Positions 36,749 through 63,399 of a DNA stretch of 64,000 nucleotides are shown in pieces. How positions within the stretch are numbered: position 1 is the stretch's first letter; each line of letters starts with the position of its first letter. This DNA is from Prochlorococcus sp. AG-409-J16 (lineage in GTDB: Bacteria; Cyanobacteriota; Cyanobacteriia; PCC-6307; Cyanobiaceae): NCBI GenBank assembly GCA_003215655.1, contig QCKB01000001.1, positions 372,001 to 436,000 on the forward strand, read 5' to 3'. A model generated the notes under the pieces. It had not been told where the DNA came from and did not search any database. It saw only the letters and a program-made list of their open reading frames with translations. Both the position numbers and the translations under genes were made by a program.

Positions 36749-37165
36749 TCAGCGCCAAATAACTCTCAAGCGGTTAGGCGCAATCCATTGATCTTGCTCA
36801 TCCATAAGACGACGCTCTCCACCAATTGTGAATAAATTATCGAAACGCTTCTGAAGGCCTTTGAGTTTTACTGATTCGACATTCAATAAAGCTGATACTT
36901 CACCATGCCTTTCAAGTCGTTGCTGATAGGCGAAGCACAATCTGACTAAACTAACAAGGCCAAGGGAAAGCAATCCCATTTTCATAGCTAGCGCCAAAAA
37001 ACTACAAAGCATTTCCCTACGCTGTTCTTGCAACTGCAACTTAGAAGCAAGAGTTGCAGTATCCATTTTTTGTGGATTTACTTTTGAAGGCTGCAAATTC
37101 TGACTTCGGCGCCTTGGTCGCCTTGGCGTGAACTTGGACCTGGATGTAACCAGGGGGATAGACAA
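36749..37165 (-). CDS. Small bitopic membrane protein with coiled coil, FtsB/DivIC-like
   Basis: No firm family. The 138-residue protein has a very basic cytoplasmic N terminus (RRPRRRSQ), one membrane helix at about residues 54-79, and then a coiled-coil stretch (residues 80-115). It ends in a compact tail, GGERRLMDEQDQWIAPNRLRVIW. This order, and a tail resembling the ExARxxLGMVxPGE-type end of septum-initiator proteins, recall FtsB/DivIC. That is inference only. It lies 36 bp upstream of por on the same strand and 73 bp from psaM. Confidence 0.6.
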   Translation of the reverse strand: MSIPLVTSRSKFTPRRPRRRSQNLQPSKVNPQKMDTATLASKLQLQEQRREMLCSFLALAMKMGLLSLGLVSLVRLCFAYQQRLERHGEVSALLNVESVKLKGLQKRFDNLFTIGGERRLMDEQDQWIAPNRLRVIWR

Positions 37166-58429: not shown

Positions 58430-59602
58430 TTAAACTGTACTTAAAGATAAAGCCGCACCCAGCCCACTACATACGTCATCTTGAAGAAGTCGGCCATCAT
58501 GATCATGATCTAACGCGTCAAAAACAGCATCACTGCCTAACCATTCCTCACGAGTGATACATCCATCACCATCAAGATCGTTTAACAGAAAGATTTCTTG
58601 TACGGCATGACTAAATGCTGCTCCACCTTCTAGTACTGCAAGCCGATGAGCCAATTGCAATTCAAGAGTTTCTATAGCCTTACTAAATCCTCTTATCCCT
58701 TCATCCAACTTCTCACTAGCCATCCGGTCCAAAGCCATCATCGAGTCAAACTTATTTTTATCAACATGAATTTCCTCCTCTGCTAAAGAAGGGTTCTCTT
58801 TATTCAACTTACGCAAAAGAGGTTCTTTTGTATTGCGAAGTTGTTCTAATAATTTTGGAGAAATAGTTAAGAGATCACATCCTGCAAGCTCAATGATCTC
58901 TTCAATATTGCGAAAACTTGCTCCCATGACTTCTGTTTTATATCCAAATTTCTTAAAGTAATTAAAAATCTTAGTAACAGAAATAACGCCAGGATCCTCT
59001 GGCCCAGGATAAGAATCACGACCAGTCTCTGCTTTAAACCAATCAAGTATTCGGCCGACAAATGGAGAGATCAAGGTGACCCCAGCTTCTGCACAGGCAA
59101 CTGCCTGACAAAAACCAAATAAAAGTGTCAGATTGCAATTTATACCTTCTTTTTCAAGAGTTTCTGCGGCCTTGATGCCTTCCCATGTAGACGCAATCTT
59201 TATCAAAACACGATCTTTTGTTACCCCAAGCTCTTCATAAAGACGAATTAACTTCCTCGCCTTTTCAATCGTGGCCTCAGTGTCAAAACTCAACCTTGCA
59301 TCAACTTCAGTAGAGACGCGACCTGGAACTATCCTCAGAATCTCCTTACCAAAAATCACACAAATCTCATCAAGCGCCTCATTCACGACATCTTCCACTG
59401 GAGCACCACTCCCAATATGCTCTCTTGAAGACTTAAGCGCCTCATCAATTAATGCTTGATAAGCAGGTTTTTGAGCAGCCGCCAGAATCAAAGAAGGATT
59501 AGTAGTTGCATCCCTGGGTTCAAAAGTCCGAATTGCATCTAGTTCACCTGTATCCGCGACCACAACAGTCATGGCAGATAGCTGATCAAGGAGTGAGGCC
59601 AT
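58430..59602 (-). CDS. tal: Transaldolase with C-terminal EF-hand pair
   Basis: Transfers dihydroxyacetone units in the pentose phosphate pathway, also used in carbon fixation and in dark metabolism. The TalB-type barrel has the opening [31 protein letters not shown], the Schiff-base Lys in [18 protein letters not shown] and [15 protein letters not shown]. After about residue 330 the protein continues with two EF-hand loops: [12 protein letters not shown] and [12 protein letters not shown]. The first is canonical; the second ends in Asp rather than Glu. At 390 residues it exceeds the usual 316 because of this tail. Confidence 0.96.
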
Positions 59603-59691: not shown

Positions 59692-61497
59692 TTAGATTTT
59701 TGCAGCGTTAAATTTTGCTTGATAATTGCTTGGCGGAATTTTCTCCAAAACCAATAAGGCATCAATGATTTGCTTCGCTACAGGGACTGCAACTGTAGAA
59801 CCAAATGCATTATTCCCCTTCGGTTCATCCACAACCACCAAAACGACATAGCGAGGCCTGTCAGCAGGCAAACTGGCAATAAAGCTACATACCTTTAGAT
59901 CAGGCTGATAAATACCGTTACGTGCTTTCTGAGCAGTACCTGTCTTCCCTCCAATTCGATAACCAGGTGTCTTCACCCCCATTCCACTCCCTTTCTCTAC
60001 AACTGACTCCATCCAATTCCTAACTGTTCTGGTGACATCTGGCCGTAAAAGGACATTCTTTCTCACCGATCCTCTTGGAGCTAAAGAATTACCAGCCCTC
60101 AAACCTCTTGTTATATGAGGGCTGACCAAGTGTCCTCCATTTGCAATCAGAGCATGTAGCTGAGCCAACTTCAAAGGAGTCAAGGAAAAGCCTTGACCAA
60201 ATGCCGCAGTAGCAGGCTCAATAGGGTGGTGAACGAATTCATCTTTATTCTTCAACTGTCCAGCGACAGCACCAGGCAAATCAGTATCAGGTCTTTCATC
60301 TAGTCCTAACTTTTGCAGCCAATCCCAATAAATGGACGCCTCAAGATGACGCATTGTTTTAACCATCCCAATATTGCTTGAGACCTGTAGCAACTTTGGA
60401 AAATCAATTAATCCATGAACCTGTCTGTCATTGTTATAAATAGGCCACCCTCCTATGTTTAACTTTCCATTGTCATACACTTTCCCCTCAGGATTAATCA
60501 CTCCTTCTTGAAGTGCTAAAGCAAGGTTTATCGGCTTAAAAGTAGATCCAGGCTCAAAAAGATCTTGAACAGACCATTCACGAAAGAGGCTTGGCTGGAA
60601 TTCCCAGTATTTATTAGGGTCATAAGTAGGCGTAGACGCCAAAACAAGCAGTTCCCCATTCACCACATCCATCACAATTGCAGCGCCTTTCTTGGCCTTC
60701 CACTTAGCAACTTGTCTTGTCAGAACTTTTGAGGCAAGCTCCTGAAGCCGTGCATCTAAAGTCAACTGAAGGCTGAGGTTGTCCTCATAGAAAACTCCGG
60801 GGGCAAGATCATCAGGTAGTGGGGTCCCATCTTTACCTAGTCGCATACTCCGAGGTTGCTCAAAACGCAATAGCTCCTCGTGGCGACTTTGTTCTAATCC
60901 CGCCTGTGGAACTCGGTCTTGATTTAAAAAGCCAACAACATTCGCAAAAATCTGCCCCTGAGGATAAACACGCTGCGGATAAGGCTCCAAATCCAACCCA
61001 CTAATACCTAAACCACGTATCTCTGCCGCGGTCTCGGAATTTAACCCCTCAACAAGTTTTACACCTGAAGCCCTATCTCCAAACCTATCTACCAATTGCC
61101 CCATAGAGATCGGCAATATACCTGAGAGTTTTCGGGCAACCTCTATTGGCTTTCGAAGTAAGTCAGGGTCATCTCCAGGAAAATTAAAATAACGTGGATG
61201 TGCCCAAAGTCGATACCTTTGCTCATCAAGAGCAACTAAGCGACCATTACGATCAACAATTGATCTACGTGTCCCAAGTGGTTGTGTGCGCTTCGTCTGG
61301 ACTGCTCTTGCACGTGCTTCTAACTCTGAAGACTTAAGCACCTGCAACCAAGCCATTCGACCTGAAAGACCCACAAGGCCCAAACAAAGAACTGCAAAAA
61401 CAGCTCTAACCCTATTTGCAGGAACCAACTGAAATGGAACAACAGGTTGACGTTTCCGCCTGGGTCTTCTACTACTACGAGCCTTACGTACAGGCAT
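59692..61497 (-). CDS. ftsI: Division-type class B penicillin-binding protein (PBP2/FtsI)
   Basis: A transpeptidase that cross-links septal peptidoglycan. A basic N terminus (RKARSSRRPRRKRQ) precedes one membrane helix near residues 30-50, then the pedestal domain. The catalytic motifs are SxxK in PGSTFKPINLAL, SxN in SSNIGMVKT and KTG in RIGGKTGTAQKA. I chose the ATG at 61497; it shares its A with the upstream stop (TGATG), so the FtsL-like gene before it is coupled. Length of 601 is normal. Confidence 0.94.
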   Translation of the reverse strand: MPVRKARSSRRPRRKRQPVVPFQLVPANRVRAVFAVLCLGLVGLSGRMAWLQVLKSSELEARARAVQTKRTQPLGTRRSIVDRNGRLVALDEQRYRLWAHPRYFNFPGDDPDLLRKPIEVARKLSGILPISMGQLVDRFGDRASGVKLVEGLNSETAAEIRGLGISGLDLEPYPQRVYPQGQIFANVVGFLNQDRVPQAGLEQSRHEELLRFEQPRSMRLGKDGTPLPDDLAPGVFYEDNLSLQLTLDARLQELASKVLTRQVAKWKAKKGAAIVMDVVNGELLVLASTPTYDPNKYWEFQPSLFREWSVQDLFEPGSTFKPINLALALQEGVINPEGKVYDNGKLNIGGWPIYNNDRQVHGLIDFPKLLQVSSNIGMVKTMRHLEASIYWDWLQKLGLDERPDTDLPGAVAGQLKNKDEFVHHPIEPATAAFGQGFSLTPLKLAQLHALIANGGHLVSPHITRGLRAGNSLAPRGSVRKNVLLRPDVTRTVRNWMESVVEKGSGMGVKTPGYRIGGKTGTAQKARNGIYQPDLKVCSFIASLPADRPRYVVLVVVDEPKGNNAFGSTVAVPVAKQIIDALLVLEKIPPSNYQAKFNAAKI

Positions 61498-61967
61498 CAA
61501 TATCCTTGATTGATTGGTTGATCTACAAGCTCTCTCAATATTGGAATTTCGATCGAATTTTTCTCAACGTTAGGTCGTTTCAAATAAAGCAAATGAGAAG
61601 CTTTTGTTGGAACCATAGATCTAGGCGAACTATTTTTCTGCAATAAATATCTCTCAAGCATTGCCGTTGATTCTGTAAGCCTATGAGCCAATGCACGAGT
61701 TTTTTCAAGTCTCGTAAAGGCAACTGTCCAACGATGTTGCCAATGCAGAGTGAAAGAGGCTACAAAAGCCACTGCGATCAAAACTCCAACCAACGTCCCA
61801 TCAACAGTCCTATGTATCCCTGCAAGCAATGGTGATTGACGTGCGACTTTTTTTGAAGACAAAGACGCTTGTATTAAATTTAAAGTTCCCACAGAACGAG
61901 TGCTTAAAGTTGCACGTTCTAAAGATTCATTATGTGATTGAACTACAGCAACCACTCTAAAAACCAC
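61497..61967 (-). CDS. FtsL-like bitopic membrane protein
   Basis: A 156-residue protein not matched to a named family by eye. It has an N-terminal polar part, one membrane helix at about residues 57-75 (TLVGVLIAVAFVASFTLHW), and then a coiled-coil-like stretch (FTRLEKTRALAHRLTESTAMLERYL) and a short tail. That order, its size, and a one-base TGATG overlap with the following ftsI are the hallmarks of FtsL, which in most bacteria sits directly before ftsI. Cyanobacteria have no generally recognised FtsL, so this is a candidate, not an assignment. Confidence 0.65.
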   Translation of the reverse strand: MVFRVVAVVQSHNESLERATLSTRSVGTLNLIQASLSSKKVARQSPLLAGIHRTVDGTLVGVLIAVAFVASFTLHWQHRWTVAFTRLEKTRALAHRLTESTAMLERYLLQKNSSPRSMVPTKASHLLYLKRPNVEKNSIEIPILRELVDQPINQGY

Positions 61968-62040: not shown

Positions 62041-63399
62041 TCAACCTCCAAGTAAAACAAGATTCAAAAATGTCACTCCATTCCAGAGTGCATGCATTAG
62101 AACACAAGGCAATAAACGGCCAGAACTTAATCTTAAGATCCCAAGGCCTAACCCTAATACAACCAAGGGGGGCAGCTCTCCTACACTCAAGTGAGCTATG
62201 CCAAAAATAACGGCACTAAAAACAACACCCAGCAATGGACCAAAGGATTTCGCTAATACTGGTAAAAGGACTCCTCGGAACACCACTTCTTCAAACAACG
62301 GTGCCAAGAAAACTGTTGTTGCAATAAGGAGAGCCAATGCTAATGGGTCTCTGCTATTCAAAACCAATCCAAGCAAAGGATTACTACCACCCTGATCTCC
62401 TACTAGCCGAGTCATAAGCCAACCAGTAAACAAAACTGCCGGCAGAACCATTAACCACCCTCTTACCGCACTAAAGATTGCTTTGCTGAATGGTTGCACT
62501 CGCCATTGCAACCATCCATCTACTGGACGCTGAGTACTATCAAGGCTTCTCATCTGACTACGCAAAATCAACAACGGTGGCAACGTCATTACGCTATATC
62601 CAATAACAACTTTTAATGAATCACTTAATGGACTAGCTAAACCCTTAGTCAAAAGACCACTTAAAGGCAAAGAGAAAACTGGAGAAACCACTTCGCCTAA
62701 AACAACAAAGCCACCAGCCACAAGCAAGCCCATATCGGCTAAAGACAAAGGCATTGCTAAAACTTCTGGCCATGGGGCAGCAACCTTTCTAAACAAAAGC
62801 CAAACTTGCCTAATCAATAAACCACTTCCTAATAGCAAGCCAATCGCAGGTAGCCCCTGACTAATCGCCAACCTCAGAGCCATGGCTCTTGATATAGAGG
62901 TATCTACGCAACTTTTTACATCTCCACCTAGGGCTAAACAACTTAATTGATTCAGCAAAGGATCCCTATTTAGAGGAGCTAGATCCTCAGAGAAACCATA
63001 TAAAGCCCCTTCCGGACGTGGGGACTCAAGAAGAGCCTTTTGAATAGGCACCAAAGAAGGTGCCATCAAGGGCTTTGATAGGACCTCCAAACGTTTATCA
63101 ATAGAAGGCTCCAAAGCTGCACGCAAAACTCTCTGACGATCATCTAACTCTTCTAAGGAGATCTGATCCAAAGCATCCCTCAAAAGAATCTCAGGATCAG
63201 GTCCAATCAACAACGGCCTGACAGAAGGGTGTACTGAAGGCTCTGCCAATAAGGCTATTTCCTTCTGCTGTAAAGCCAGCTCAGGAACGACTGAAGGACG
63301 ACTGAAACTATCTTCAAGCCCCTTTTTCCAAATCGCTGCTGCAAGAACTAGGCACAGTACAGAAAGTAGTACTTTCCAGGCAGGTGTTGTTCGTCTCAT
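62041..63399 (-). CDS. CPBP family intramembrane metalloprotease
   Basis: A 452-residue membrane protein of the CAAX-protease/bacteriocin-processing family. The N-terminal 150 residues are a soluble region after one membrane anchor (residues 9-25). The rest holds about seven helices. The catalytic motifs are EExxxR in PLFEEVVFRGVLL, the His in FGIAHLSVG and HALWNG near the C terminus. Such enzymes cut membrane substrates or act in prenyl-protein processing. The target is unknown. It is divergent from the phosphatase gene. Confidence 0.9.
   Translation of the reverse strand: MRRTTPAWKVLLSVLCLVLAAAIWKKGLEDSFSRPSVVPELALQQKEIALLAEPSVHPSVRPLLIGPDPEILLRDALDQISLEELDDRQRVLRAALEPSIDKRLEVLSKPLMAPSLVPIQKALLESPRPEGALYGFSEDLAPLNRDPLLNQLSCLALGGDVKSCVDTSISRAMALRLAISQGLPAIGLLLGSGLLIRQVWLLFRKVAAPWPEVLAMPLSLADMGLLVAGGFVVLGEVVSPVFSLPLSGLLTKGLASPLSDSLKVVIGYSVMTLPPLLILRSQMRSLDSTQRPVDGWLQWRVQPFSKAIFSAVRGWLMVLPAVLFTGWLMTRLVGDQGGSNPLLGLVLNSRDPLALALLIATTVFLAPLFEEVVFRGVLLPVLAKSFGPLLGVVFSAVIFGIAHLSVGELPPLVVLGLGLGILRLSSGRLLPCVLMHALWNGVTFLNLVLLGG

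Follow-up and report, generated by a model that had tools for sequence, protein, structure and literature searches.

The small gene that directly precedes ftsI in the window (the whole 64,000-nucleotide stretch of Prochlorococcus sp. AG-409-J16 DNA analyzed here) encodes a candidate cyanobacterial FtsL, and we estimate a probability of roughly 0.9 that this protein is an FtsL ortholog that acts in an FtsWIQBL complex. We are highly confident that it is an FtsL ortholog by homology, and an FtsL role in division, in which the protein is predicted to scaffold and activate FtsWI, is quite likely. The sequence-only reading had proposed FtsL on the basis of architecture and gene order. This proposal is supported here, with reciprocal profile scans and hhalign comparisons both selecting FtsL over FtsB. 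Reviews have described FtsL and FtsB as absent or undetected in cyanobacteria (PMC7766704, PMC4748335), and this stated absence makes the cyanobacterial septal machinery look incomplete. According to the accessible text of a dcw-cluster study, cyanobacteria generally have the cluster genes other than mraZ and ftsA, but at scattered positions, and ftsL was assigned partly by position (PMC8871954); the window protein is not described in that text, but the study may have taken an ftsL for granted. The family described below is a divergent member of FtsL, which overturns the stated absence. It may have been identified earlier in bioRxiv preprints, which our literature coverage did not include, or in subscription papers, most of which it also did not include.

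The minus strand of the window holds a 156-codon ORF (61967..61497), and its longest frame opens at a GTG at 61967, from which the residues of the candidate FtsL are numbered. The true start is probably the GTG at 61955, which would give a protein of approximately 152 aa, because in three relatives (L005, L006, and L016) a stop codon interrupts the frame immediately upstream of the position that aligns with Val5 of the window protein. The frame, topology, and C-terminus were kept in all 29 relatives fetched first, indicating that the candidate ftsL is not a chance ORF. The ORF proposed earlier is therefore real, and its strand, which had not been given, is now assigned as minus. As had also been noted, the stop codon of the candidate ftsL is fused to the start of ftsI, and the two overlap as TGATG (61499-61495), with the ATG of ftsI at 61497. 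The features are listed in Table 1. No rsmH gene lies upstream of the candidate ftsL, and in the window a transaldolase gene lies downstream of ftsI. The transaldolase-like protein encoded at 58430-59602 of the window (minus strand) carries at its C-terminus an extension whose sequence resembles EF-hand calcium-binding loops.

Table 1. Features of the candidate ftsL locus and of its probable partner gene (window coordinates; residues counted from GTG 61967).
Feature	Position	Strand	Basis or remark
Candidate cyanobacterial ftsL gene	61497..61955	-	probable start GTG 61955, stop TGA 61499-61497
Transmembrane helix, residues ~55-75	61743..61805	-	hydropathy in all members; AF2 helix 46-111
Periplasmic coiled-coil-like helix, residues 78-112	61632..61736	-	AF2 and heptad-like periodicity
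Beta-strand-like segment LLYLK, residues 126-130	61578..61592	-	conserved; position corresponds to the C-terminal strand of FtsL
C-terminal Gly-Tyr	61500..61505	-	Tyr in 96/96 members, almost always preceded by Gly or Ala
ftsI, septal transpeptidase	59692..61497	-	Pfam Transpeptidase 3.6e-64, PBP_dimer 2.5e-9
CPBP (Rce1-like) intramembrane protease gene, directly upstream	62041..63399	-	same order in 30/30 and 43/43 Cyanobiaceae loci
slr1601-family protein, probable FtsB partner, unlinked	36749..37165	-	NCBIfam NF052344 'putative cell division protein', E=4.8e-7, below curated cut-off

The layout suggested by the sequence-only reading, one membrane helix followed by a coiled-coil-like stretch and a short tail, was borne out by hydropathy, periodicity, and AlphaFold2 (AF2) modeling, and the transmembrane (TM) helix and coil also agreed across the family when the homologues were checked. 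The candidate FtsL has one strongly hydrophobic stretch, which is preceded across members by a K/R-rich N-terminus. The protein is thus bitopic with a single TM helix, and its N-terminus, to judge from the charge, is probably inside. In the AF2 monomer model, one continuous helix (residues 46-111) was predicted with pLDDT >90 over the TM helix and coil, so that the periplasmic coil directly continues the TM helix. The helical stretch showed heptad-like periodicity (power at 3.5 residues) with a modest shuffle p-value of 0.033. Trp80, located at the membrane exit, was near-invariant (71/76 members). In the window protein the helix runs to approximately residue 112 and is followed by a loop and then by LLYLK, and the tail extends to residue 156. 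A conserved [IL][FY]L segment is found at the strand position throughout the family, and the distance from the TM-exit 'TV' motif to the strand was 51-54 residues in the six members checked, as compared with 52-55 residues in seven FtsL proteins from outside, that is, from sister classes (outside FtsLs). The tail was low-confidence and undefined in the AF2 monomer, with the strand not resolved, as would be expected for a strand that needs partners. A Foldseek search of the PDB with this single-helix model gave 0 matches.

A short second helix with an 'iA..LgM' motif between the coil and the strand is typical of FtsL, but not universal. This helix was absent from the family, and a P-x-x-[LM]-V-P-T-like loop was found in its place. 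This is a difference at the motif level; position, topology, and interactions are what mainly define FtsL. The predicted inside N-terminus, the single TM helix, the long periplasmic coil, and the putative C-terminal beta-strand are shared with FtsL of E. coli and P. aeruginosa (PF04999; PDB 8HHF-H, 8BH1, 8P1U), whose genes also lie directly before ftsI. In contrast to these proteins, the cyanobacterial protein gave no direct sequence signal to them, lacks their second helix, and has a tail of approximately 25 residues after the strand, whereas E. coli FtsL ends there, with Gln-Lys right after the strand.

Not counting the source genome, a protein search detected the candidate FtsL in 30 of 36 genomes of the same taxonomic family, together with one weak match in another family, and a broader profile missed it in none of the good genomes tested. 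Matches in 88 of 291 genomes were obtained with a profile of 17 Cyanobiaceae sequences. With a 25-sequence profile, the family was found in 134 of 135 Cyanobacteriia genomes, essentially as a single copy. When the model was built from non-Cyanobiaceae members only, the window protein was the sole significant match among 1055 window ORFs (E=3.5e-12), and this model also recovered 30/30 Cyanobiaceae members. A search for viral relatives of the candidate FtsL found none. The earlier statement that the FtsL sequence hardly survives has to be qualified: within cyanobacteria it survives well (one profile, 125/125 good-quality genomes), and what hid the family was its distance from proteobacterial FtsL.

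The conservation of the gene next to ftsI, on which the proposal had leaned, was confirmed in 103 of the 134 genomes, where the candidate ftsL lay directly upstream of ftsI on the same contig and strand (median of 138 bases between match ends). In Cyanobiaceae, the order CPBP-X-ftsI (X, candidate ftsL) was found in all 30 loci fetched (own and 29 relatives). Among 43 named loci of Prochlorococcus and Synechococcus (including WH7803), which partly overlap the genomes of the 30-locus set, ftsI was downstream in 42 and the CPBP gene was upstream on the same strand in 43. In most of 40 distal loci fetched, ftsI directly followed the candidate ftsL. In 31 of the 134 genomes, concentrated in a few families, the candidate ftsL was not found adjacent to ftsI. 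In several cyanobacterial families (L274-L293) the gene is unlinked from ftsI but was still kept in every good genome, which suggests independent break-ups of the ftsL-ftsI pair. The CPBP (Rce1-like) protease gene was a constant upstream neighbor of ftsL-ftsI in Cyanobiaceae; we make no claim that the protease acts with FtsL.

Nothing significant was found when the window protein and eight distant relatives were scanned against Pfam and NCBIfam; no model for the family exists there, and the match to an unrelated family that was sought in these scans was not found. The family did not reach the curated cut-off of TIGR02209 or PF04999, and all genomes of the phylum that were tested, including those with the order rsmH-ftsL-ftsI, scored below the cut-offs of the curated FtsL models. 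Non-photosynthetic Cyanobacteriota encode an FtsL-type protein in the ORF that separates rsmH from ftsI, and TIGR02209 (ftsL_broad) gave sub-threshold matches to several sister-class FtsLs (2.2e-5 in G355, 3.9e-5 in G326, and 8.2e-5 in G343). The strongest TIGR02209 match among the Cyanobacteriia sampled was a member of the family (3.6e-4, in G071). TIGR02209 matches in Vampirovibrionia were rejected as FtsL and assigned to the FtsB type on the basis of a TPR-gene neighbor, no ftsI, and DivIC scores above the cut-off, and sister-class FtsL was then located by its position before ftsI. In the Vampirovibrionia-like genomes (L100-L114), a conserved gene for a TPR protein, which is not a division gene, follows the FtsB/DivIC-type gene. 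Two further matches (L088 and L089) were kinase/TPR proteins and were discarded as family members.

Comparison of the cyanobacterial family with outside FtsL by hhalign gave an E-value of 3.1e-7 over 74 columns, and a broader family set gave a score of 50.3 over 110 columns (P 2.4e-9). Among 60 column-shuffle controls against outside FtsL, in which the TM and periplasmic parts were shuffled separately so that the composition of each was preserved, the maximum score was 14.2 and the mean 2.8. A comparison with a two-sequence E. coli/P. aeruginosa FtsL profile, which was judged too thin to count, gave no signal. When the outside-FtsL profile, which contains no member of the cyanobacterial family, was run over 194 Cyanobacteriia genomes, the family accounted for 7 of 7 matches below 1e-4 and for 11 of the 13 best matches; the other two were an slr1601 protein and an unrelated protein. 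In the reverse direction, 6 of the 7 best matches of the cyanobacterial profile in 25 outside genomes (E up to 0.011) were the gene directly before ftsI. The reciprocal scans carry their own null, because every other TM-plus-coil protein in the genomes competed. A single step from the outside-FtsL profile was not enough to reach the Cyanobiaceae version, to which the window protein belongs, and the link therefore runs via other cyanobacteria and the sister classes. In addition to this detectable homology, the FtsL of non-photosynthetic Cyanobacteriota (L161-L180) shares with the family the spacing, the [GA]-aromatic end, and the position before ftsI, but it has rsmH upstream, keeps an 'A..LGM'-type second helix, and lacks the membrane-exit Trp.

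FtsL and FtsB share a fold and distant similarity (outside FtsL versus outside FtsB, hhalign score 37.2, P 5.8e-7), and the family might thus represent the FtsB/DivIC of cyanobacteria, or a protein that merges the FtsL and FtsB types, with its position before ftsI due to chance. We consider this improbable, since the score of the family was 6.5 against sister-class FtsB as compared with 50.3 against outside FtsL, and the reverse scan led to the gene that precedes ftsI, with no FtsB from those genomes among its best matches (0/7). Moreover, the separate slr1601 family, present as a single copy in 113 of 116 Cyanobacteriia genomes, is a better FtsB candidate. That the protein is instead a cyanobacteria-specific accessory protein of FtsI, FtsL-like by convergence and not by homology, appears very improbable. 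Composition-preserving shuffles failed to reproduce the profile match, scans in both directions picked the positional FtsL from whole genomes, and the TM-to-strand spacing and C-terminal [GA]-aromatic pair are common to the family and outside FtsLs. These results outweigh the points that speak for convergence, namely that the curated FtsL/FtsB models all remained below cut-off, that direct similarity to proteobacterial FtsL is weak, and that composition alone can make TM-plus-coil proteins look alike.

The conserved CPBP neighbor in Cyanobiaceae would also fit a small membrane protein without a division function, for example a partner of the protease, that is co-transcribed with ftsI by chance. 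This explanation is hardly credible, because outside Cyanobiaceae the usual neighbor is ftsI, with CPBP detected in few of the fetched loci, and because the candidate ftsL is near-universal. FtsL remains the preferred identity of the window protein.

The slr1601 family (NF052344) shares with the candidate FtsL a TM helix, a periplasmic coil, a short C-terminal segment, and near-universal presence in cyanobacteria. It is, however, a different family (hhalign score 12.7, not significant), and its gene in the window is unlinked from ftsI. Although the match of the slr1601-family profile to FtsB was not significant, this family is probably the best FtsB candidate. CyDiv (All2320 of Anabaena), which has been proposed as FtsB/DivIC-like, is also a small coiled-coil membrane protein and has a division phenotype, but it has been reported to carry the TM helix toward its C-terminal end and the coil toward its N-terminal end (PMC4748335), the reverse of the order in the candidate FtsL; CyDiv was set aside as FtsB on this topology. 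The slr1601-family gene of the window lies beside a gene for light-dependent protochlorophyllide reductase.

In the solved complex, FtsL pairs with FtsB in a coiled coil and contacts the FtsI pedestal and FtsW, and the last FtsL strand extends the FtsQ-FtsB sheet (PMC7614612; PMC10390529); the E. coli strand is N116-Q120 (PMC10390529). The position, topology, and spacing of the window protein fit this role, and FtsW/RodA and FtsQ-type POTRA genes were found in the same genome. By analogy with solved FtsWIQBL complexes, the short basic N-terminus would lie in the cytoplasm, and the single helix would span the membrane and continue as the periplasmic coil that leads to the C-terminal beta-strand. 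The coil would pair with an FtsB-like partner, for which the slr1601-family protein of the window is the best candidate, and would lie against the FtsI pedestal and FtsW, while the strand would be part of a sheet to which FtsB, FtsQ, and the transpeptidase domain of FtsI also contribute. FtsWI would thereby be held in an extended, active state, such that septal peptidoglycan is made only in the assembled divisome, and a gene with such a role may be essential. A single message with the overlapping TGATG may help to balance FtsL and FtsI. If the family is FtsL and slr1601 is FtsB, cyanobacteria would have the whole FtsWIQBL core, in single copy and almost universally, and known logic could be used to test directly how septal wall synthesis is activated in the phylum. 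Morphology engineering would also gain a named target, and thousands of hypothetical proteins could be annotated cleanly.

The C-terminus of the family was strongly conserved. The first 30 Cyanobiaceae proteins (own and 29 relatives) all end in Gly-Tyr, and a terminal Tyr was found in 76 of 76 members. The set in Table 1 reaches 96 with another 20 members whose genes were not found next to ftsI; all 20 end in [GA]Y, indicating that overlap with ftsI does not impose the terminal Tyr. Outside FtsLs likewise ended in [GA][YFW] (16/16). The tail of approximately 25 residues past the truss strand, with its invariant aromatic end, might tentatively be viewed as a phylum-specific docking peptide to which a septal regulator binds, perhaps in place of the missing FtsN. 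The invariant C-terminal Tyr is a specific and testable clue to such a phylum-specific regulator.
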